Source of the DNA: Oceanirhabdus sp. W0125-5
GTDB lineage: Bacteria > Bacillota > Clostridia > Clostridiales > Clostridiaceae
Length of the DNA stretch: 64,000 nt
Assembly (NCBI RefSeq): GCF_027938815.1
Contig: NZ_CP115913.1
Coordinates: forward strand, 1,274,001-1,338,000
Direction of reading: 5' to 3'
A model generated the notes under the pieces. It saw only the letters and a list, made by a program, of their open reading frames with translations. It ran no database searches and was not told the origin of the DNA. A program made the translations under genes and the position numbers. The number at the start of each line of letters is the position of its first letter. The first letter of the stretch is position 1. Positions 2,631 to 32,054 of the stretch are shown here, piece after piece.

Positions 2631-3716
2631 TTGGATACTGAAAAAAATAATCTTTTGACTCCAAATCAGTTTACTTATTTATTATTAGGCTTTGTTGTTG
2701 GAACAGGCTTTTTAAAGTTACCTAATCAACTTGTAAAAAGTGCAGGGCAAGACTCGTGGATGTGTGCTATTTTTGCTTTGATCTATCCATTATATGTTGT
2801 TCTTGTTAGTAGTTATATTATAAATGAACACCCAAAAGAAAACATTTTGAAGATAAATAAAAAATATTTTGGTGATTTTTTTGGTAACATAGTAAACTTT
2901 CTTTTTATGTTGCAGTTTATAATAACTACTGTTGTAATTATTGCTCATACGATAATTTTTAGTAGAGTTTATATAGTGAGTTTTTTAGCACCCTTAAAGG
3001 TGGGGCTTATTACAGTTTTATTGGTTGCTTATACATCTAGTAAGGGCATAAGTGTTTTAGGGAAGTTAAATCAATTGATTTTTTATATGTTTATTCCAGT
3101 ATTTTTATTATCTTTAACAGCATTGAAGTATGGGGATATACTGAATATACAACCTGTTTTTGGAGGAGGAGTAGCAAATATTTTAAAGACTACCCCAAAA
3201 ACAGCATATTCTTATTTTGGTTGGGAATGTTTATTGTTACTTTTTCCTTATGTAAAGGAAACCAAGTCTATAAAAAAGGCAGCATTTAAAGCAGTAGGTA
3301 TATGTGGGGTAGTATATGTTTGGGTTATTTTTAGTACTATATATTACTTAAGTATAGATATAACTCCCAAAAGCTACTGGTCGTTTATAATGGTTTTTAC
3401 AAGCATCAATATTCCTATTATTAATAATTTTAGATATATATTTATGTTTATATGGATTGTGCTTTCATTTAGAATTACTGCTAATTATTATTTTGCAGTA
3501 ACTATATGTATTAATAGTTTTAAGAAAATAGATTTAAAAAAAATAGTTCTTTTAATTTTACCCATTATAATTTTTTTAGTATATATGCTTTCGGATAGAA
3601 TGTTAAGACAAAAAATAGAAGGTTTTACATATCCAGCATCTATAATTTTTAATTTATCTTTTATTACATTAGTTGCTTTATTAATAAAGTTTAAAAAGAA
3701 GAAAAATGATAATTAA
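2631..3716 (+). CDS. GerAB/ArcD/ProY family germinant-receptor permease, paralogue 3
   Basis: This 361-residue permease closes the germination operon. It shares GTGFLKLPNQL, GQDSWMC and NIPIINNFRYIFMF with paralogue 2 and is closer to it than to paralogue 1. The start is TTG at 2631, immediately after the strong ribosome site GGTGGGAGG (2619-2627). Its stop codon lies inside the left arm of the operon terminator. It is probably an alternative B subunit for the same A/C receptor pair, or one of three B subunits that diversify germinant response (inference from known receptors with several B paralogues). Confidence 0.92.
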   Translation: MDTEKNNLLTPNQFTYLLLGFVVGTGFLKLPNQLVKSAGQDSWMCAIFALIYPLYVVLVSSYIINEHPKENILKINKKYFGDFFGNIVNFLFMLQFIITTVVIIAHTIIFSRVYIVSFLAPLKVGLITVLLVAYTSSKGISVLGKLNQLIFYMFIPVFLLSLTALKYGDILNIQPVFGGGVANILKTTPKTAYSYFGWECLLLLFPYVKETKSIKKAAFKAVGICGVVYVWVIFSTIYYLSIDITPKSYWSFIMVFTSINIPIINNFRYIFMFIWIVLSFRITANYYFAVTICINSFKKIDLKKIVLLILPIIIFLVYMLSDRMLRQKIEGFTYPASIIFNLSFITLVALLIKFKKKKNDN

Positions 3717-4961: not shown

Positions 4962-5822
4962 ATGGAGGGTAAAAAATTTTACATAGAATATGAAGAACAA
5001 GAGAATGGGATAAGTGTTGTTAAAAAAATGGAGGAGTATTTTGAGCAGAATCAGGTATACGAGCCTGAGAGTGTTGGTATTGGATACTGGGAAGAAGCAT
5101 GGGAAGAAGATCCAGGAAAGATAATAGAGTATATGGTTGAGAATAAAGATAAATTTCCTAATTTAAAAAGAATTCATTTAGGTGATATGACAAGTGAAGA
5201 GTGTGAAATTTCATGGATTGTACATACAAATACATCACCACTAGTAAACGAATTTAATTTAAATGAATTAAGAATAGATGGTTGTAATGGATTAAGATTA
5301 AGTAATATGGAAAGTAATACATTAAAAAAACTTACTATTGTTTGTGGCGGACTTGAAAATACTGTTATTGAAGATATTCAAAATGCTAAATTACCAAATT
5401 TAGAACATCTACAGTTATACATTGGTGTTGATGATTATGGATTTGAGGGAGATATTGATACTCTTAAACCATTTATGAACAAGAATAATTTTCCAAAGGT
5501 AAAATATCTGGGATTAGTAAATAGCCAAATACAAGATGAAATATGTGAAACAGTTCTAGAATCTGATATTTTAGAACAACTTACTGTTTTAGATTTATCT
5601 TATGGTACATTAAGTGATAAAAGTGGTAAGCTTATTTTAGAAAATATTCATAAGATAAAACATCTTGAAAAGTTAGATTTAACTTATAACTACATGTCAG
5701 ATGAGGTAGTAAATGAATTGGTAAAAGTATTTGAAAAAATTGAGACAGAGTTATTAATAAGTAGAGAAGAGGTCTATCTTGATGAGGACGATGACTGGAG
5801 ATATCCTTATATAACGGAGTAA
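4962..5822 (+). CDS. STM4015-like leucine-rich-repeat protein
   Basis: This 286-residue soluble protein contains irregular leucine-rich repeats from about residue 65 to 260 (for example LKRIHLGDM, LEHLQLYIG, VKYLGLVNS, LTVLDLSYG, LEKLDLTYN). It has an acidic, aromatic N-terminal segment and ends in an acidic DEDDDW then RYPYITE tail. The ribosome site AAGGAGGAG (4945-4953) supports ATG at 4962. It matches the STM4015 family, named for a Salmonella locus and always seen with STM4011-4014 homologues. The next gene begins 5 bp after its stop, so the operon is tight. Its biochemical role is unknown; an LRR could recognise the substrate or scaffold the enzymes (inference). Family assignment comes from LRR content plus the full operon context. 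Confidence 0.8.
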   Translation: MEGKKFYIEYEEQENGISVVKKMEEYFEQNQVYEPESVGIGYWEEAWEEDPGKIIEYMVENKDKFPNLKRIHLGDMTSEECEISWIVHTNTSPLVNEFNLNELRIDGCNGLRLSNMESNTLKKLTIVCGGLENTVIEDIQNAKLPNLEHLQLYIGVDDYGFEGDIDTLKPFMNKNNFPKVKYLGLVNSQIQDEICETVLESDILEQLTVLDLSYGTLSDKSGKLILENIHKIKHLEKLDLTYNYMSDEVVNELVKVFEKIETELLISREEVYLDEDDDWRYPYITE

Positions 5823-5827
5823 GATAT

Positions 5828-6979
5828 ATGAAAAATAAATTTTTATTAATAGGCGATTTAACAGGTAGAAGAATGAGCTGCTTTATAGATTGCTTGAATA
5901 TGTTAGAAATTAATGAATATAAAGTTATTGACTGGATGGATGTATTGAAGGATACATCCATCTTAGAAAAATATATTGAAAGTAATACTATAATCAAACT
6001 TGAACCACCAGAAAAGAATATGGAAATATACAGAGGATTTCTGAAAAGAGGAGTATCAGAAGGAGTAATATGTGATAAGGAAATAAATAAACTTGATTTT
6101 TCAGATTTCCCAATTATAGCTCCTAAACAATGGTATAGAGGGTTCAGTTCAGTTATAGAAGATATAGAGAAATTAAAAAATAGTTATTTTAATAAAGATG
6201 TTTACTTTATGAATGACCTTAAGGAAACGCTAATAATGATGGATAAAGAGCAGTCGTATAAGCTGCTGAAGGAACAGAATAATAACTATGATTTTTCATT
6301 ACCTGAAAGGCTAGAATCACCTAGGGATTATGATACGTTTAAAGAAATCTATGGAGATAGGTATATGAAATGTTTTATTAAGTTAAGATATGGATCAGGA
6401 AGTACGGGAGTTTTGGCATATTCCTATAATCCAAGGACATTACAAGAAAAGGTATATACTTCAATGAATGTTGAAGAACTTAAAGGGAAAAAAAGATTTT
6501 TTAGTAATTATAGGGTACACTGCGTTGAAGATAAAAAAAAGATTAAGGATATGATTGATTGGGTATTATTCAACGGAGCACATATTGAAAAATGGATTCC
6601 AAAATCAACACATGAAGGTCGTTTCTTTGACACAAGATCTTTTGTAATCAATAAAGAATCAAGATATCTTATATCAAGACTAAGTAAGGGGCCTATTACT
6701 AATCTGCATCTTAAAAATAAGCGGCTGGAAAGTAAAGATTTTATCTCTGATGATAACATAGAAAGAATAAAAAAAGCATCAGAAGATGTGATGAAAATAT
6801 TTAATAGGTCTTTATATGCTGGAATTGATGTGGTGACAACACAGAGTTATAAACCGTATATTATTGATGTAAATCCTTTTGGTGATTTGCTACATAACTT
6901 ATTGGGAACAAAGGAGAATGTTCATTATCTAGAAATTGAAAAGGCTATTGAACAATTACAAGGTGGAATGAATAGATGA
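5828..6979 (+). CDS. STM4014-like ATP-grasp family protein
   Basis: This 383-residue protein has the shape of an ATP-grasp enzyme. A glycine/serine-rich nucleotide-loop segment (KLRYGSGSTGVLAY) sits mid-protein, and near the C-terminus a metal-binding stretch, YIIDVNPFGD, resembles the D..N motif of ATP-grasp ligases. In family terms this predicts ATP-dependent carboxylate activation and ligation to an amine or thiol. ATG at 5828 lies 5 bp after the LRR stop, and the stop overlaps the next start by 4 bp (ATGA at 6976-6979), indicating translational coupling. The substrate is unknown. Position and neighbours identify it as the STM4014 member of the conserved set. Confidence 0.78.
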   Translation: MKNKFLLIGDLTGRRMSCFIDCLNMLEINEYKVIDWMDVLKDTSILEKYIESNTIIKLEPPEKNMEIYRGFLKRGVSEGVICDKEINKLDFSDFPIIAPKQWYRGFSSVIEDIEKLKNSYFNKDVYFMNDLKETLIMMDKEQSYKLLKEQNNNYDFSLPERLESPRDYDTFKEIYGDRYMKCFIKLRYGSGSTGVLAYSYNPRTLQEKVYTSMNVEELKGKKRFFSNYRVHCVEDKKKIKDMIDWVLFNGAHIEKWIPKSTHEGRFFDTRSFVINKESRYLISRLSKGPITNLHLKNKRLESKDFISDDNIERIKKASEDVMKIFNRSLYAGIDVVTTQSYKPYIIDVNPFGDLLHNLLGTKENVHYLEIEKAIEQLQGGMNR

Positions 6980-7839
6980 TAGAAAGTTTAAATGTTAATA
7001 TGAATGAAGTGGTAGGAAATAATGATATTCTTTTCCTATCATTAGATACCCTCAGATATGATGTGGCAAAGGAAGAATATGAAGCAGGAAATTTACCAAA
7101 TCTATGTGGAAGTGGCGGTTGGGAGAAAAGACATTCCCCAGGAAATTATACCTACTCTTCTCATCATAGTTTTTTTATTGGTTTTTTACCTACTCCAGTA
7201 GAATATGAACCACTACATAAACGAGATTGGTTATTTTTAACGAAGAAGACTGGATTAAAGTCTATAAAAGGAAGTAATACATTCTTATATGAAGGAAGTA
7301 ATATTATTGAGGGGCTTGAAAAGGAAGGATATAAGACAATATGTATTGGAGGAGTAGTATTTTTCAGTAAGATGGAAGGGGTTTATAACGTTTTCCCAAG
7401 TATGTTTCAAGAAAGTTATTGGAATCCAAAATTTGGAGTTACAAATCCTAAGTCAGCAGAAGAACAAGTAAAGTGGGCAATAAAGTTACTTGATAAAATT
7501 GATAGAGACCAAAGAGTTTTTATGTTCATTAATATATCAGCAATACATGGACCTAATTATTACTATCTTGAAAAATATAAAGGTATGGAAGAAAAAACGA
7601 ATGGCAAGAGAAAAAATTCTATTGCATCTAAGTTAGATTGTGTAGAAAGCCAAAAAGCCGCTTTAAGATATGTAGATAAGTGTTTAGAACCTTTGTTTAA
7701 TAAAATGAGAGAGAGAAACAGAACTTTTTGTATTGCAGTATCAGATCATGGAACATGTTATGGAGAAGATGGGTATGAGGGGCATATTGTATCACATGAT
7801 GTGGTTTGGAATGTACCATATAGGCACTTTTTCTTGTAA
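6976..7839 (+). CDS. STM4013-like alkaline phosphatase/sulfatase superfamily hydrolase
   Basis: This 287-residue protein has the metal-binding hallmarks of the alkaline phosphatase superfamily. LSLDTLRYD lies at residues 21-29 (D24 as ligand), a candidate nucleophile region PGNYTYSS at about 55-62, an N-terminal-half HG near residue 190 (AIHG), SDHG at 256-259 and a late His at 270. It is shorter than most sulfatases and lacks a signal peptide, so it should act in the cytoplasm. It overlaps the ATP-grasp gene by 4 bp. The family is annotated only as STM4013/SEN3800-type hydrolase; phosphatase, phosphonate or sulfate chemistry is all possible. Confidence 0.82.
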   Translation: MIESLNVNMNEVVGNNDILFLSLDTLRYDVAKEEYEAGNLPNLCGSGGWEKRHSPGNYTYSSHHSFFIGFLPTPVEYEPLHKRDWLFLTKKTGLKSIKGSNTFLYEGSNIIEGLEKEGYKTICIGGVVFFSKMEGVYNVFPSMFQESYWNPKFGVTNPKSAEEQVKWAIKLLDKIDRDQRVFMFINISAIHGPNYYYLEKYKGMEEKTNGKRKNSIASKLDCVESQKAALRYVDKCLEPLFNKMRERNRTFCIAVSDHGTCYGEDGYEGHIVSHDVVWNVPYRHFFL

Positions 7840-7885
7840 CATATTTATCTGATTGTGCCTTTAATAGAAAGGAAGTAATTACTTA

Positions 7886-9208
7886 ATGAATGAACAAATA
7901 AAGGATTTATTACAGAATCCATATGATAATTATATATATGCATATCCCCATAAAAAAGCCTATAGGGAGTTTCAGAAACCTATGTCTCTGAAGGAATTAT
8001 GGGGGAAGAGTGAAAAAAACAACCTGACATTATATATTCATATTCCTTTTTGCATGAATAAGTGTGGGTATTGTAATTTATTATCTAGTGTTTCATACGA
8101 TGATGAGAAGCTTAAGAGATATGTAAATAAGCTTATAGAAGAAATTGAAGCATTAGGGCGTATTTTAGAAATAGAAAATAGTAATCAGATTTTCTCAAGT
8201 GTAATATTTGGAGGGGGTACTCCAACACTTTTAAATGAATCGGATTTAAGAAGACTCTTGGAAGCAATTATTAAAAATTTAAAAATCGATTTTAATAAGA
8301 CTTTCTTATCTATGGAATCATCACCAAGGACTTTAACAAAAAGTATGCTTGAACTTTTAAAGGAGTATAAGGTTGATAGAATCAGTATAGGAGTTCAAAG
8401 CTTTCATGAAAATGAATTAAAAGGAATTTTCAGACTTGAACCAGTAGAAGAGATAGATAGAGCACTACAGCTCATGTTCAGTAATAATATACCTATAAGA
8501 AATATTGATTTGATTTATGGGTTGAAAGAACAGACCATGGATACATGGGAAAAATCATTAAGGGAAGCTTTAACATATAATCCAGAAGAGATATTCATAT
8601 ATCCTATGTATATTAGAGAAAAAACTGGATTATTTTCAAGTTTTCAAAGAGATGAAGATCTGATGATTAAAATGTATAAATTTGCTTTAGACCTGTTACG
8701 AGATAAAGGGTATATTCAAACATCTATGAGAAATTTCATTAGAGGGGATAAGAAGAGAGAGCTATTTCCTGAATATAGCTGTCAAGAAAATAATATGGTA
8801 GGTGTAGGCTGTGGTGCTAGGGGATATGTAGATAATATTCATTATTCCAGACCATATGCAGTTATGCAAAAGAATATTAATGCAATTATAAATGATTATA
8901 TTCAAGAAGATAATTTTGAATATGCTAAATATGGCTATATATTAAATGAAGATGAACAAAAGAGAAGATATATATTAAAATCAATATTGAAAATAACAGG
9001 GTTAAATATTAAGGACTATGAAAATAAATATAAAAAATCACCCTTGGATGAATTCAAAGAATTAAACAGTTTAATATCTGAAAAGTTTCTTATTAATGAA
9101 AATGACAGAATATATCCAACCGATAAGGGGCTTATGTATTCAGATATTATTGGTAATCTGTTTATATCAGAGGATGTAAATACTAAGGTAATTGATTTTA
9201 CTGAATAA
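7886..9208 (+). CDS. STM4012-like radical SAM protein (HemN/HemW-related)
   Basis: The 440-residue protein carries the radical SAM cluster motif C56-x3-C60-x2-C63 inside IHIPFCMNKCGYCNL, followed by a GGGTPT SAM-binding motif (about residues 111-116). The overall plan, including the SIGVQSFHENELK segment, is that of HemN/HemW oxygen-independent coproporphyrinogen oxidase relatives. Such homologues are often not true HemN enzymes. Neighbouring genes place it in the STM4012 family instead of haem synthesis. ATG at 7886 follows GAAAGGAAG. It begins 46 bp after the hydrolase gene and leads by 14 bp into the second radical SAM gene. Confidence 0.87.
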   Translation: MNEQIKDLLQNPYDNYIYAYPHKKAYREFQKPMSLKELWGKSEKNNLTLYIHIPFCMNKCGYCNLLSSVSYDDEKLKRYVNKLIEEIEALGRILEIENSNQIFSSVIFGGGTPTLLNESDLRRLLEAIIKNLKIDFNKTFLSMESSPRTLTKSMLELLKEYKVDRISIGVQSFHENELKGIFRLEPVEEIDRALQLMFSNNIPIRNIDLIYGLKEQTMDTWEKSLREALTYNPEEIFIYPMYIREKTGLFSSFQRDEDLMIKMYKFALDLLRDKGYIQTSMRNFIRGDKKRELFPEYSCQENNMVGVGCGARGYVDNIHYSRPYAVMQKNINAIINDYIQEDNFEYAKYGYILNEDEQKRRYILKSILKITGLNIKDYENKYKKSPLDEFKELNSLISEKFLINENDRIYPTDKGLMYSDIIGNLFISEDVNTKVIDFTE

Positions 9209-9222
9209 TTTGAGGAGTGTTT

Positions 9223-10074
9223 ATGGCGTATACACTTTATTATAGAAACTTCATGAGAAATTGTAATTATAAATGTTCATATTGCCCATTTGCAAAAGTA
9301 ATTGCAAATGAAAAATCAATCAAAAGGGATAAAGAGTATTTTAATAAATTTATTCAATTCATAGGAGCTAGTTCTAAGGAATTTAAAATTTTCTTTGCAC
9401 CTAAAGGAGAAATTTTAATACATGAATATTATAAAGAAGGATTAATATATCTAAGTAGTTTGAAAAATGTTAAAGAAATTGTGGTTCAAACCAATCTAAG
9501 TGGTAGTTTAAATTGGTTAAAGAACTGTAATAGGGAAAAATTAATTTTATGGACTACATATCATCCAAAAGAGGTAGATGCATTATCTTTTTTCAGCAGG
9601 GTTAAAGAGTTAGTTAATTATAATATTCCATTTACAGTTGGTACAGTTGGAACTAAAGAAAATTTTATAAAAATAGAAGAAATGGGTAAGTTATTAAGTG
9701 ATTTAGGTAATAAAAAACCATACTACTGGATAAATGCTTTTAAAGATAAAAACAATTATTATAATGATAAAGATATAGAATTTTTAAAGAAATTTGATAG
9801 CTTATTTGAAATTAACTTAGAAAATTATAAATCAAAGAACTTAGAGTGCAGAGCAGGAGAAAATGTTTATTTAGTTGAATGGAATGGTAACCTTAATTCT
9901 TGCTGGCAAGATAAAAGAAAGTTGGGTAATTTATATAAAGATGACTTGGATGATATCAGTACTACAACATATTGTAATAAGCAGATTTGTGGTTGTTTTA
10001 TTGGATATAATCATATTAAGAGTTTAAAATTAGAAGAAGTATATAAAACAAGCCTTATAGGGAGAATACCATAG
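9223..10074 (+). CDS. STM4011-like radical SAM protein
   Basis: This 283-residue enzyme has C14-x3-C18-x2-C21 in NCNYKCSYCPFAK, binding the radical SAM [4Fe-4S] cluster. A C-terminal cysteine set (residue pattern C...C...C..C-x4-C-x-C after residue 205) resembles a reduced SPASM/auxiliary-cluster region. ATG at 9223 was preferred to GTG at 9217, because the ribosome site GAGGAG (9212-9217) would overlap the GTG. It is the last gene of the five-gene operon; no terminator is obvious after it. The pairing of two radical SAM enzymes with an ATP-grasp protein suggests modification of a peptide or small molecule (inference). Confidence 0.83.
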   Translation: MAYTLYYRNFMRNCNYKCSYCPFAKVIANEKSIKRDKEYFNKFIQFIGASSKEFKIFFAPKGEILIHEYYKEGLIYLSSLKNVKEIVVQTNLSGSLNWLKNCNREKLILWTTYHPKEVDALSFFSRVKELVNYNIPFTVGTVGTKENFIKIEEMGKLLSDLGNKKPYYWINAFKDKNNYYNDKDIEFLKKFDSLFEINLENYKSKNLECRAGENVYLVEWNGNLNSCWQDKRKLGNLYKDDLDDISTTTYCNKQICGCFIGYNHIKSLKLEEVYKTSLIGRIP

Positions 10075-10215: not shown

Positions 10216-10548
10216 ATGAATTCTAAATATGAGGTTATTGCCATAGCACATAAGGACATTGCAGATGAGGTGAAAAATAAATTTTTCAGATATACCATCT
10301 GTGAATTCGATGAGTTGAAGGATATTCAAGAAATAAAAAATATTCAAGGAAGAACCATGGATTTAAATTCAAGAGCTAGTATTTACGTGTCATGGTTTGA
10401 GGATAAGATTGAGAAAAAGATAGAAGAGGGTTATAAAGTTGCAATTCTAGAACTTCCATTTGCATACCAATCTCAGGTAGAGCTTCTAGAAAAGTTAGAT
10501 ATAAAACTTGGTGATGATTTATTGATATTAGAAAAAGTAGATGTATAG
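10216..10548 (+). CDS. Small hypothetical protein
   Basis: A 110-residue soluble alpha/beta protein with no family I recognise. It begins with a strand pattern (YEVIAIAHKDIADEV) and has a second hydrophobic strand (KVAILELPF) followed by charged helices. ATG at 10216 is preceded by GAGAGGAG (about 10197-10204). A consensus-like promoter upstream and a strong terminator downstream make it a single-gene transcription unit, which supports its being real. Confidence 0.7.
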   Translation: MNSKYEVIAIAHKDIADEVKNKFFRYTICEFDELKDIQEIKNIQGRTMDLNSRASIYVSWFEDKIEKKIEEGYKVAILELPFAYQSQVELLEKLDIKLGDDLLILEKVDV

Positions 10549-10576: not shown

Positions 10577-10621
10577 TAAAACAGACTCAACACTAAATTC
10601 TGAGTATTGAGTCTGTTTTAT
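10577..10621. terminator. Bidirectional terminator between convergent genes
   Basis: AAAACAGACTCAA (10578-10590) pairs perfectly with TTGAGTCTGTTTT (10607-10619), loop 16 bases, with A and T runs on the two sides. It can serve both the 110-residue gene (+) and the M6 protease gene (-), which converge here. Confidence 0.85.
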
Positions 10622-10682: not shown

Positions 10683-12140
10683 TTATATGATATTAAAGCT
10701 TATATTTGAACCTAGTTTATGAATATCTGAAACAATTAATCCAGAATCACTTTCGTCCCATAGCCTACTCGATGGTGTTGTACTATATGAAAGTGCTATT
10801 CCTGTAACTTCATCGTACAAGTCAGTACTATCTCCTCTATTTCGATTATTTTCTAAATCTAATTTTCCATCTGCCTGTAAAATTGCACACTGGAAATGAC
10901 GATCCTTAGTACCATCTTGATACTCATTAGATCCTTGTGTATCACAGTGATAAATTGCAAGACCGCTGGAAGGTAAGCTGCTGTCCAAATCTAAAGCATT
11001 TCGATTTTCAATGACAAAATATTCTTTAGAGTTATCGGTAGGATATTTCATAATTGTGTTGTAATCGCTATGTTTTGCAACGTAAGAATTTTTATGAAGA
11101 ATAATTTCATTATCGCACCAGTTAATTAGATTCCTTGAGAAAGCACAAATAGGTGAGGGGGTTCGACCTCTATTTAAGTGATTTCCTGATCCCATTAGGC
11201 AGTACACGCCTATTCCTTGACTTTCTATTTCATCACCATCACGATAACCATAGTCATAATTATCAACTAAACGAAGAAGTAGGTGACCTGTTTCGTGGCA
11301 AAAAGTTCCTATACTTAAATCGCTAGTATCACGACCACAACTAGCTAACATATAAAAATGTGTTTTAATTCCATTATATTCTAGATTAATAATGGAATTG
11401 TGTGGCCATAGATTTTCTTCATAAACTGTTCTACCAGCATAAAGAAAGTTTAGTGCATCAATAATACCTCTATTTTGAGAATCGTATTTGGACAAATCAA
11501 TGCCTAAGTCATTTACAACAATATCCATAGCTTCTTTTATTAAGAGATGATTTTTATAATATTCAAGTTTTTGTGAAAGTTTAATAGGTCCTATCACATG
11601 ATTAATATACCTCAACTTTCCGCTGGACATTGTATGGAAATATTCATATACCGAGCAATGATTTCCGTTTTTATTATAATTCAAGTCATTTAACATTTCA
11701 GTTACATCTTTTGCAGTAACAGAAGTAGAAACATCGGCAAATTCTACTAAGACAGTTAATCCAATCACATCACCTTCACTAATTCTTTTCCCGTCCAGTA
11801 AACCATTATTAGGACCAAATGCAAAATTTCCTATAGTATCTGTACTGGGAGGATATATTTCTCTATGTCGATCATTAAATTTTCTTTTTCTCTCTGATTG
11901 ATTTTCCTTAAGATGACGAGTTATTCCATTAGGGATAGGGCCAGTTATATCTTTTCCTGTAGATACTAACTTGCCGTCATGTAAGCTTGCATAACAAAAT
12001 ATATTTAAATCATTATCTCGAACTGCAGTATAACCATCTAGCGACTCATATCTAGCTAAAAACTCATCACCATACACTCGTAGTTCTATTTCTCCATCAC
12101 CATGTGAAAATGTTAGGATTTCTCCAACTATTACACTCAT
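10683..12140 (-). CDS. M6-family metalloprotease domain protein without signal peptide
   Basis: The 485-residue protein contains HETGH at 282-286 followed by LVDNYD (Asp near 293 as likely third zinc ligand) and a Met-turn-like CLMGSGNH at about 314-321, as in immune inhibitor A/M6 peptidases. The N-terminal 100 residues resemble the propeptide-like region of this family (YESLDGYTAV...). Unlike most M6 enzymes it begins directly with MSVIVGEIL, with no signal peptide and no C-terminal cell-wall domains, so export is not evident. The start is supported by AAGGAG on the minus strand just upstream. It may be cytoplasmic or leave by a non-classical route (inference). Confidence 0.85.
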   Translation of the reverse strand: MSVIVGEILTFSHGDGEIELRVYGDEFLARYESLDGYTAVRDNDLNIFCYASLHDGKLVSTGKDITGPIPNGITRHLKENQSERKRKFNDRHREIYPPSTDTIGNFAFGPNNGLLDGKRISEGDVIGLTVLVEFADVSTSVTAKDVTEMLNDLNYNKNGNHCSVYEYFHTMSSGKLRYINHVIGPIKLSQKLEYYKNHLLIKEAMDIVVNDLGIDLSKYDSQNRGIIDALNFLYAGRTVYEENLWPHNSIINLEYNGIKTHFYMLASCGRDTSDLSIGTFCHETGHLLLRLVDNYDYGYRDGDEIESQGIGVYCLMGSGNHLNRGRTPSPICAFSRNLINWCDNEIILHKNSYVAKHSDYNTIMKYPTDNSKEYFVIENRNALDLDSSLPSSGLAIYHCDTQGSNEYQDGTKDRHFQCAILQADGKLDLENNRNRGDSTDLYDEVTGIALSYSTTPSSRLWDESDSGLIVSDIHKLGSNISFNII

Positions 12141-12541
12141 AAAAAAACCTCCTTAGAAAACAAATATTTTTTATTGTAAGATAGTTTGCGCATAATAATA
12201 TTAAAATATTTGCTATATCTCAAAAATAAAATTTACAAAATTCGATGATTGGATTTGAAATAGGTATTTTTATGTAAAGAAAGGAAGAGATAAATTAGAC
12301 CTTCTATTGTTGGAATAGAAATAGTATGTTTAGTACAAAATATTTTATGTGAATATGTTATAGATAAACTTGCTATAGAGTTTGATATATTATAGATATT
12401 AAATGGATAGATATTGGTAATTTCGGTTATGAAAAGCAATGTGTTTTTTAAAGTGGTGATTAAAAAGAAAAATTTACATCCTTAGCAATAGGGTTAAATT
12501 TAAATAAAGAAAAGGCGATTTATAAGGAGATGTTTATTATC
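12141..12541. other. Gap between the divergent M6 protease and EndoU genes
   Basis: About 400 AT-rich bases lie between the two divergently transcribed genes. I find no convincing gene. A 68-codon minus-strand frame at 12233-12439 has no ribosome site and an isoleucine-rich composition expected of noncoding AT-rich DNA. Promoters for both flanking genes must lie here, but no strong -35/-10 pair stands out. Confidence 0.4.
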
Positions 12542-13891
12542 ATGGATAAATTTAAAGAATTTTATGAAGAACTATGGAATCTAGACCAAGCAAATAATGG
12601 ATTAAGTGCTAGTGCTCCAGATAGTAATAGAGGATGGGTAAATAAAAATGCAGATATATTGATAGATGAACAATATGAAGCAGCAGGAAGAAATAAAGAT
12701 AGAGCGCCTAATCCTTTGTTTTATAGTGTAAAGGAAACTAAATTGGAAGGAAAGACGTATAAAAGCTGTATAGAATTATTAAATAATTATCTTGTTTATC
12801 CTAGAGAACAAGAAGATCTAATAGGAAATAATTCAGAAGAAGATATTGAAAGAAAAAACTTTTTAGACAGTATAGTAGAAACAAGAGTAGTAGAAAGGGG
12901 ACTTGAATTTATAAATGAAAATTTAAAAAAAGAAGTTATTGAAAAAGTACTTAAATTTATTGATAGGCCAATAAATTCGAAGTTAGAGAAAGATGATTTT
13001 AAAAAATATATAGAAAAAATATGGTTTGAAATATATACAAATTATTATAAAGGAAAACCGCAACCAAATTGCTCAGGATTTGAACATGTTTTTGTAGGTG
13101 AAGGAAAATCAAAAGATAATAGAGGAATTGGAGGGTATCATAGTTGGATTAAATTTTATTTAGATGAAAAAGGAAAGAGAGTAGATTTTACTGGTTACAA
13201 TTATGATATTTTAGGTAAAGAAGGACGTGAAAATCCTTATGTTGCAACAATTCAAATGACCTGGACTCCGAAGGATATTTATGGAAGAAGAGTGAGGAGG
13301 CTATTCAAAGACAAAGGTGGTTTTTTTGTAGGAATAAGCCCAGAATGTCAAATTGTAATGGGAACACTACTAATATTAGAAAAAATGAATGGATTACTTA
13401 ATGGAACAAATAAAGAAGTAGAAATTAATAACCAAGTTTATGATTTAGTTATTTACCCAGAAACGCCTAAATCTATGGAAAATAATACAGGAATGAGAAT
13501 AAGGTCATTTTTCCCAAAATATAAGGGACCATCAGATTTATCTAATGTAAGAAAGTATTATGAAATTATAAATAATGAAAATGATATAAGGATTATAGCA
13601 GCTTATTTAAACCCTGCAAGATCAAGTAGAGGAATTGGGTGGGTAGAAATTGATAACATATCTTTAACAAGAATATCTATTGTTGGGTGGAAATTAGTTG
13701 ATATGTCTAATAATGAGAAAATACTTGAAGGAGATATTGAGCCAAATAAGACAAGAAGATTGATTATTTATGAAGATGATTTATTATTAAATGAAGATGG
13801 AACAATAGAATTGAGAGATAAGGAAAATAGAAGCGTATTCAAAATAAAATATCATAATGTTCCTGATGGAGAAATACTATATTTTTCTTAA
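12542..13891 (+). CDS. EndoU (XendoU-type) endoribonuclease with C-terminal lamin-tail-like domain
   Basis: A 449-residue protein. Residues 1-275 match eukaryotic-type EndoU: an N-terminal helical part, then SGFEHVFVGE with H182, GGYHSWIKFY with H200, and a lysine near 244, the expected His-His-Lys catalytic set. The domain cleaves single-stranded RNA at uridines in known members. Residues about 345-445 look like a lamin-tail domain (RIIAAYLNPARSSRG, then ISIVGWKLVD and GTIELRD blocks). ATG at 12542 is preferred over ATG at 12530, since AAGGAG (12524-12529) abuts the latter. No signal peptide, toxin leader or immunity gene is adjacent. A repeat copy of the island family starts just after its stop. 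Confidence 0.82.
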   Translation: MDKFKEFYEELWNLDQANNGLSASAPDSNRGWVNKNADILIDEQYEAAGRNKDRAPNPLFYSVKETKLEGKTYKSCIELLNNYLVYPREQEDLIGNNSEEDIERKNFLDSIVETRVVERGLEFINENLKKEVIEKVLKFIDRPINSKLEKDDFKKYIEKIWFEIYTNYYKGKPQPNCSGFEHVFVGEGKSKDNRGIGGYHSWIKFYLDEKGKRVDFTGYNYDILGKEGRENPYVATIQMTWTPKDIYGRRVRRLFKDKGGFFVGISPECQIVMGTLLILEKMNGLLNGTNKEVEINNQVYDLVIYPETPKSMENNTGMRIRSFFPKYKGPSDLSNVRKYYEIINNENDIRIIAAYLNPARSSRGIGWVEIDNISLTRISIVGWKLVDMSNNEKILEGDIEPNKTRRLIIYEDDLLLNEDGTIELRDKENRSVFKIKYHNVPDGEILYFS

Positions 13892-30327: not shown

Positions 30328-30495
30328 ATGGCAAAAAATAAGTTCATTGTAGAAAGACATTATAGTAATCAGTCAATTGATAAGCTAATGAAGTCTTTGG
30401 TTATTGTTAAACTAAATCAAAGTATGAAAGAACAGAGAGATGAGAAGACTAATGACAACATAAATACCGCTCTCATAAAAGATGAGAGTAGGTGA
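30328..30495 (+). CDS. Small leader ORF preceding the serine recombinase
   Basis: A 55-residue basic protein beginning MAKNKFIVERHYSNQSIDKL, too short for routine gene tracks. Its stop TGA (30493-30495) lies within the ribosome site region of the recombinase, whose ATG is 5 bp further on, so the two are translationally coupled. Similar small basic ORFs commonly precede large serine recombinases in Firmicutes. It may regulate recombinase translation or act as an accessory factor (inference). Confidence 0.7.
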   Translation: MAKNKFIVERHYSNQSIDKLMKSLVIVKLNQSMKEQRDEKTNDNINTALIKDESR

Positions 30496-30500
30496 TAGCT

Positions 30501-32054
30501 ATGCTTAAGGAATGGAAAGTAGCAATCTATGCTAGGGTTTCGACTGACAAACGAGAGCAGCAAGAGTCAATTCCAGCACAGATTCAATGTCTTGAAGAGT
30601 GGTTAGCCAAAAATGGTAAAGAGGATAGAAATTATAATTATAAATTAATTAAAATATATGAAGACCAAGGGGTAAGTGGTTCGACTTTCGAACGTGATAG
30701 TTTTAAACAAATGGAAGAAGATATTGAGAGTGGTAAGATTGATATGGTTCTCACCAGGGATTTATCTAGATTCGGAAGAAACTATATCACATCTGGATAT
30801 TATTTAGAAGATTACTTTAAAGTCAAAGGTGTTAGATTTATATCTGTATTGGATAACGTCGATACCATAGACGATGTGAATGATATTGTACCATTCAAAA
30901 ATATTTTAAATGAGATGTACATTAAGGATTGTTCTCGAAGAACTAGAGATGGTTTAAAACAAAGAATGAAAAGAGGTTCCTGTATCTTGAGTAAGCCTCC
31001 ATATGGATACAATATAATTGATGTATTTGAAAATGGGGTCAAGAATAAGAAGTTAGTGTCAGCTAATGATGAAACAACAGAAGTGGTAAAAAAGATTTAT
31101 GATTTATATCTACAAGGATGGGGAGTTGGCAGAATAGCAACTCATTTAAATAATAAGAGTATAGCACCTCCATCTATGAGATTTAATACTTTTCCTAAAT
31201 CAAAATTTGGGCTGTGGACCAACAATACCATTCAATCAATACTGTCTAATCCTAAATATAAAGGTGTATTGATACAGGGGCAATATAGGAAAGTAACTTA
31301 TAAATCTAAAAAAGTTGTCAAGGTACCTGAAGATGAGTGGATTAATGGTGGAGAATTTGAAGGAATAATTGATAAAGATACCTTTGAGAAAGTAGAAGAA
31401 GAAATGAAAAGAAGGTCTAAAGGATATAGATATAAGGGAGCTCCAAAGCATATCTTCTCAACAGTATTAAGCTGTAATGAGTGTAAAGGTTCTATGTCTT
31501 ATAGAAAGAAATATCAAGGATACAAATGTACAAATAGCCAAATGGGTGGAGGTAGGTGTACAGCTCATTCCATTAAAGAAGAGTATCTTAAAGAAATAAT
31601 TATTCAAGATTTAAAAGCATTCGTGAAAGAGTATGTTGATGAGAATGAACTTTACGATGAAATTGAAGGAATGTTAAATAAGAAAAGTAATTTTGGAGAT
31701 AGGATAATTGAGATTGATAAAGAACTAAAGAAGCTTGATAGCCAATTTGAAAGAGTATACCTTGATAAGATAAATAATGTTTTGAGCGAAAGAAATTTTG
31801 AGAATATCGCCTGTACAATAGAGAAGAAACAGAATAATTTAATCCAATTTAAGGATGAGCTATTAGAAACTAAGGAAAAATATGATGATAAAAATGCTGT
31901 ATATGAGGCATACAAAGATAAAGTTGATAAGATATTAAGCTTTCAAGAGTTTGATAGAATGACCGTAGAGAGCTTGATTAATAAGATTATAATAACAGAA
32001 GACAAAGAAACAAAAGAAAAGAAGATAGACATTTATTATAAGTTCCATTCATAA
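30501..32054 (+). CDS. Large serine recombinase (site-specific integrase) of the island
   Basis: A 517-residue recombinase. The resolvase catalytic domain (residues 5-150) has Y10-ARVS with nucleophile S14, then QG-VSGS, and DLSRFGRN. The recombinase domain spans about 160-260, a zinc ribbon uses C325, C328, C343 and C353, and a coiled-coil region is near 395-465. This order is standard for large serine integrases. ATG at 30501 with AGGTGA (30490-30495) is preferred to GTG 30492. The gene ends 55 bp from attR and points out of the island. It should integrate and, with a directionality factor, excise the island at the AC core. No separate excision factor is recognised. Confidence 0.95.
   Translation: MLKEWKVAIYARVSTDKREQQESIPAQIQCLEEWLAKNGKEDRNYNYKLIKIYEDQGVSGSTFERDSFKQMEEDIESGKIDMVLTRDLSRFGRNYITSGYYLEDYFKVKGVRFISVLDNVDTIDDVNDIVPFKNILNEMYIKDCSRRTRDGLKQRMKRGSCILSKPPYGYNIIDVFENGVKNKKLVSANDETTEVVKKIYDLYLQGWGVGRIATHLNNKSIAPPSMRFNTFPKSKFGLWTNNTIQSILSNPKYKGVLIQGQYRKVTYKSKKVVKVPEDEWINGGEFEGIIDKDTFEKVEEEMKRRSKGYRYKGAPKHIFSTVLSCNECKGSMSYRKKYQGYKCTNSQMGGGRCTAHSIKEEYLKEIIIQDLKAFVKEYVDENELYDEIEGMLNKKSNFGDRIIEIDKELKKLDSQFERVYLDKINNVLSERNFENIACTIEKKQNNLIQFKDELLETKEKYDDKNAVYEAYKDKVDKILSFQEFDRMTVESLINKIIITEDKETKEKKIDIYYKFHS

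Follow-up and report, generated by a model that had tools for sequence, protein, structure and literature searches.

A complete five-gene operon

Five consecutive open reading frames lie together on the forward strand, at positions 4962-10074, of the 64-kb stretch of DNA whose ORFs were read in this analysis (hereafter, the window), in the order STM4015-STM4014-STM4013-STM4012-STM4011. All five products exceed the curated cut-offs of the NCBI families of these names, which confirms the complete operon recognized in an earlier note on this DNA. The family models themselves carry no functional assignment. First, the gene at 4962..5822 encodes an LRR protein of 286 aa that belongs to the STM4015 family (NF038076, 296.6 bits against a cut-off of 275; model pLDDT 94) and that we propose as carrier or substrate. 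Its C-terminus is DEDDDWRYPYITE, with codons, as read from the sequence, at 5781..5819, and its last residue, Glu286, is the proposed attachment point. Second, the gene at 5828..6979 encodes a RimK/LysX-like ATP-grasp ligase of the STM4014 family (383 aa; NF038074, 305 bits, cut-off 175; model pLDDT 93). Third, a hydrolase or transferase of alkaline-phosphatase/sulfatase fold, from the STM4013/SEN3800 family, is encoded at 6976..7839 (287 aa; NF038075, 381 bits, cut-off 250; PF00884, 44 bits). Fourth, positions 7886..9208 hold a HemN-like radical SAM enzyme of the STM4012 family (440 aa; NF006067, 526 bits, cut-off 380), with its cysteines arranged as C56-x3-C60-x2-C63. Fifth, a second radical SAM enzyme, of the STM4011 family and with SPASM/twitch-like C-terminal cysteines, is encoded at 9217..10074 (285 aa; NF038073, 326 bits, cut-off 200); its start may be the GTG at 9217 or the ATG at 9223, which stands behind a GAGGAG ribosome site.

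The spacings along the operon are +5, -4, +46 and +8 bases. The coordinates and tight packing previously described are therefore right, except that there is only one 4-bp overlap and not several. The window has a GC content of 28.6%, and the host has a low-GC genome of 5.78 Mb in which spore genes are present. The host had been taken for a spore former, a reading that its gene content supports through an endospore germination permease encoded at 2631-3716.

A search of the window against Rfam gave no match. A 110-aa ORF at 10216-10548 was considered as a sixth operon gene and rejected, as it has no relative in any locus. Behind this ORF, at 10580-10619, an inverted repeat (AAACAGACTCAA...TTGAGTCTGTTT) followed by T was spotted by eye and may be a terminator; its loop is too long for the pattern scan, which overlooked it. 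Further 3' of the operon, the window encodes an M6-type metalloprotease-like protein (10683-12140), an XendoU-like endoribonuclease protein of 453 aa (12530-13891) and a large serine recombinase-like ORF of 520 aa (30492-32054).

The five genes are inherited together

A scan of genome contigs yielded 80 loci, whose hosts are Paenibacillaceae, other Bacillota, Cyanobacteria, Bacteroidota, Planctomycetota, Chloroflexota, Myxococcota, Desulfobacterota, Actinomycetota and one gammaproteobacterium. Using profiles built for this analysis, we found all five genes co-located in 82 of 88 loci from nine phyla, a set that includes a few duplicates. The six incomplete loci are either short contigs, where the operon meets the contig end (L093, L094, L105, L107), or split loci (L036, L104). 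Gene order is almost constant among the 88 loci, with one swap (L101) and one case of convergent halves (L114), and a Salmonella plasmid record shows the same order together with a Cof-type HAD phosphatase. Thus, the expectation that the same set would be conserved elsewhere, including Salmonella, holds across phyla. At the level of whole genomes, STM4015 was present in 20 of 20 searched, and STM4014 and STM4011 were both present in 19 of 19, on separate contigs in some; in one of the genomes, G232, operon parts are spread over three contigs, yet STM4014 and STM4011 are retained. Given the full loci and these 19 genomes, homologous operons do not consistently miss any gene, a pattern that the earlier note had named as evidence against its view.

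The occurrence of the set is nevertheless patchy, since the full STM4015 family was found in one of 349 sampled Pseudomonadota genomes, which is the seed itself, and in six of 296 genomes of an Actinomycetota sample. STM4013 scored above its cut-off in eight of 398 genomes in a sample taken across the phylum. A literature search yielded no assigned function and only incidental mentions of these loci, so the description of the operon as unexplained stands. The gene set, which ranges from Salmonella and Bacteroides to Paenibacillus, cyanobacteria and Streptomyces, is catalogued by NCBI as families of hypothetical proteins.

Additional parts of the system were sought around the operon. A conserved short peptide gene, which had been suggested as something to look for, was not encountered in the three closest relatives, where all short conserved ORFs fall within the operon or the following gene or run antisense to one of them. 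Across phyla, no flanking family of at least 80 aa is shared as widely as the operon, and no widely conserved transporter, exporter, protease, release enzyme or regulator was found adjoining it. A DUF6745 (LRR) protein and a protein of about 98 aa adjoin the operon in Methylobacterium, Deinococcus, Streptomyces, a planctomycete and a chloroflexus (L212, L213, L215, L216, L217, L106, L109), and homology of the smaller protein was shown in four of those genomes. An anti-phage defence system was rejected as an explanation: PADLOC returned only weak superfamily-level matches, for the two radical SAM proteins, and no viral contig with STM4013 was found.

STM4015 ends in a fixed glutamate

Comparison of the loci showed that the N-terminus of STM4015 is variable, with no extra domain, a WGR domain or a HEAT domain, and that the members have the LRR body and a C-terminal tail in common. 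The tail usually consists of an acidic stretch followed by R-[Y/F]-x-x-x-x-E, and of 124 distinct sequences, 121 have Glu as their final residue, a count inflated by shared ancestry and not equal to 121 independent events. Outside Paenibacillaceae the terminal Glu is found in 61 of 64 tails, with R at -7 in 50, Y or F at -6 in 53 and a preceding acidic stretch in most. As a control, 55 of 730 flanking proteins (7.5%) end in Glu, and the other four operon proteins have no fixed last residue. The residue is kept in organisms as diverse as Salmonella (...NAMYTE), Deinococcus (...RYVALGE), Bacteroides (...YSPMITE) and cyanobacteria (...RYCSVAE). The three tails that end otherwise (L097, ...SSYG; L174, ...QPAP; L172, ...MLCY) come from genomes that all have other copies.

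Several genomes encode more than one LRR protein per enzyme set, namely, two to six in several cyanobacteria and two in Deinococcus, Streptomyces and Myxococcus. Nearly all these paralogues retain R-[Y/F]-x4-E, although their bodies are only 38-68% identical; such an excess of targets over enzyme sets suggests substrates more than enzymes. In the cyanobacterial paralogues (L090, L093, L095, L097), an N-terminal HEAT-like segment (DFDAVLGG...VLGGIEG) is shared with WD40 proteins of the same operon. Other proteins with an STM4015-type tail were also searched for, as a DNA pattern, in the genome that contains the window, and rejected: the 37 matches, against 46 for the reversed pattern, are at chance level, and neither of two candidates inspected is a real gene end.

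The best fold match of the STM4015 model is the solved protein 2ra8 from Bacteroides fragilis (38% identity, TM 0.86). The tail is predicted with high confidence, which may reflect memorization of the 2ra8 entry by the model.

The enzymes encoded with STM4015

ArgX with LysW (3vpb) and LysX with LysW-gamma-AAA (5k2m) make up the four top-ranked solved folds for STM4014. Fold alone is not decisive, because other types of ATP-grasp enzyme score closely behind, among them D-Ala ligases, PPIP5K kinases, RimK and the graspetide ligase PsnB, and the TM score normalized to the query is only 0.58. Profile searches of solved relatives placed RimK proteins best, with LysX also among the matches. When the next-matching families were determined for 43 STM4014 members at E <= 0.01, RimK was obtained for 28, MptN for 26, LysX (LysX_arch) for 19 and CofF for 18; the matches to the RimK and LysX models are weak, and the members form a family of their own. 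They share the RimK-like pattern DxR...R...NLH...GiDvl...EVN and conserve R15, K185, E254, K259, D268, R270, R284, TNLHL 291-295, D334, N349, G352 and D353. The acceptor of MptN and CofF is a coenzyme carboxylate. These nearest families and folds mostly join amino compounds to a terminal carboxylate of glutamate type: LysX attaches AAA to the gamma-carboxyl of the C-terminal Glu of LysW (PMC10433800), and RimK extends the C-terminus of RpsF (PMC10092738).

STM4013 has the site of the alkaline-phosphatase superfamily, with D24, T59, H191, D257, H258, H270 and H274 conserved, and the invariant T59 is a candidate nucleophile. A formylglycine sulfatase was rejected, as the C/S-x-P/A-x-R maturation motif is absent and the nucleophile region reads FTYxxHH with T59 in it. 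Separately, on a Streptomyces albidoflavus plasmid (L214:6878-10919), an STM4013-family protein occurs without STM4014 or STM4015, alongside a MoaA-like radical SAM protein, a dTMP-kinase-like protein, NUDIX and lasso B2 genes.

STM4012 keeps CxxxCxxC and HemN-like motifs, and its nearest solved relatives are HemN (1olt, E 5e-60) and the methyltransferase NocN (9p2u, E 6.5e-33). It falls below the curated cut-offs for HemN coproporphyrinogen oxidase (140 bits versus 325) and HemW (169 versus 205). STM4011 combines CxxxCxxC with the conserved cysteines C211-x12-G-x4-C229, C253, C258 and C260, a SPASM/twitch-like pattern, and scores slightly below the cut-off for SPASM (PF13186); its nearest solved relatives, SkfB and BtrN, are weak matches.

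Extra phosphatases recur with the operon. In Bacteroides and several clostridia, STM4011 carries a fused HAD-IIB phosphatase, which in Salmonella is a separate protein and in Deinococcus is encoded near the operon; L106 and L113 have a HAD_2 protein between STM4014 and STM4013, and in L037 and L038 STM4011 is followed by a PHP protein. The HAD phosphatases, whether fused, separate or nearby, were recorded in L100, L103, L108, L110, L102, L098, L101, L112, L211:10910-11644, L213:12407-13234, L106:4792-5460 and L113:9321-10007. The operon of the window has no HAD or PHP phosphatase beside it. The recurrence of these enzymes elsewhere points to a phosphorylated intermediate.

A possible protein-tethered pathway

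The gene set with its joint inheritance, the fixed tail, the affinities of the families and the conserved catalytic residues can be brought together in a proposal to which we give an even chance: STM4015 would be a substrate or carrier that receives its load from STM4014 at the C-terminal Glu and then undergoes radical and phosphoryl chemistry. The operon would be a self-contained, protein-tethered modification pathway, in which STM4014, using ATP, would form an amide between the terminal Glu of STM4015 and an amine or amino acid. Afterwards, HemN-like STM4012 and SPASM-like STM4011 might alter the tail or the group attached to it, and STM4013 might put on or take off a phosphoryl or related ester group, with HAD, and perhaps PHP, phosphatases assisting in some lineages. 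The enzymes would probably recognize the LRR body. We infer the terminal Glu as the acceptor and the order of the steps, and likewise any choice between release of the product and its retention on the protein.

The earlier note had seen the LRR protein as a substrate binder or even a substrate; the second of these roles, as substrate or carrier, is the one favoured by the fixed C-terminal Glu and the affinity of STM4014 for RimK and LysX. Since the adjoining ligase is most like enzymes that attach groups to terminal glutamates, the repeat protein probably serves this chemistry as its workbench or target and is not just a bystander. Also in favour of a carrier are the joint occurrence of STM4015, STM4014 and STM4011 in every genome checked, even where they lie on different contigs, the failure to find a separate conserved peptide gene among the closest relatives, and the SPASM-like second radical SAM enzyme. 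Against it stand the likeness of ATP-grasp folds across the superfamily, the separate family status of STM4014 with its weak matches to RimK and LysX, the absence of the LysW fold and EDWGE motif from STM4015, the lack of an encoded releasing peptidase and the three tails without Glu.

How the product would end up divides the carrier proposal. We find it rather unlikely that STM4015 is permanently modified, as a protein-bound cofactor or by regulation akin to polyglutamylation, and that no free product is made. The lack of a conserved release enzyme among the neighbours and the way in which RimK relatives treat RpsF are consistent with this sub-case, but two radical SAM enzymes and extra phosphatases exceed the needs of simple glutamylation.

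Alternatively, the tail could serve for docking. The LRR protein would then be an adaptor or sensor, its tail gathering four enzymes that act on a free small metabolite, which we consider unlikely. Partner binding is usual for LRR proteins, the WGR or HEAT domains are variable, and the tail, being predicted with high confidence, may pack on the LRR body; the Foldseek entry for 2ra8 includes 351 of 362 residues. However, that confidence may be memorized from 2ra8, docking motifs seldom need an exact terminal residue, and the ligase's nearest relatives work on terminal carboxylates.

Equally improbable, in our judgement, is a tail that serves as a RiPP-like core, with side chains of Tyr, Trp or Arg crosslinked or altered by the radical SAM enzymes, an amide or ester closed by the ATP-grasp enzyme and the LRR body as an oversized leader: RiPP pathways often contain SPASM-type radical SAM and ATP-grasp enzymes (PMC8939145) and R and Y/F are frequent at -7 and -6, but no tail residue other than the terminal Glu is nearly universal, the R-Y pair is missing from the Salmonella tail (IYMNAMYTE), neither protease nor exporter is conserved beside the operon, and in the STM4014 fold search the carrier-protein ligases come ahead of PsnB.

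Returning to the carrier proposal, its boldest form, which we hold only tentatively, is a new class of carrier, present in at least nine phyla. LRR proteins, sometimes several per genome, would hold a small amine by the terminal Glu while a new metabolite or a protein-bound cofactor is assembled by radical SAM and phosphoryl-transfer enzymes. With a C-terminal Glu that is fixed and a ligase of RimK/LysX type next to it, the proposal can be tested on a single residue and a single enzyme. If the proposal is true, the few protein-tethered pathways would gain a folded LRR carrier, which would also offer a way towards the product.

Comparison with known systems

The closest parallel is the LysW/LysX amino-group carrier pathway, which has, as proposed for the operon, a carrier with a functional C-terminal Glu and an acidic tail, chemistry performed on the carrier and an ATP-grasp ligase, the latter being the closest fold match to STM4014. 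However, STM4015 is an LRR protein and not a small Zn-binding LysW, its typical tail is RYxxxxE, and radical SAM and phosphatase-fold enzymes take the place of kinase, reductase and aminotransferase, with no peptidase in the operon set. The operon would resemble this system in its working but is not a member of it, because the LysW fold and the EDWGE motif are lacking.

RimK, MptN and CofF, as ligases of glutamate-type terminal carboxylates, are the next-best families for most STM4014 members and have the DxR-R-NLH-EVN pattern in common with them. They act on ribosomal protein S6, in the case of RimK, and on coenzymes, in the case of MptN and CofF, whereas STM4014 has invariant residues of its own, such as R15, E254 and K259, and its proposed partner is encoded within the operon.

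Finally, in the pearlin scaffold-peptide pathways (TglA, PEARL ligases), a small molecule is built on the C-terminus of a ribosomal carrier, in some cases with radical SAM steps (PMC9303977), as proposed here. The difference is that PEARLs use aminoacyl-tRNA, that the carriers are short peptides and that a protease frees the product.
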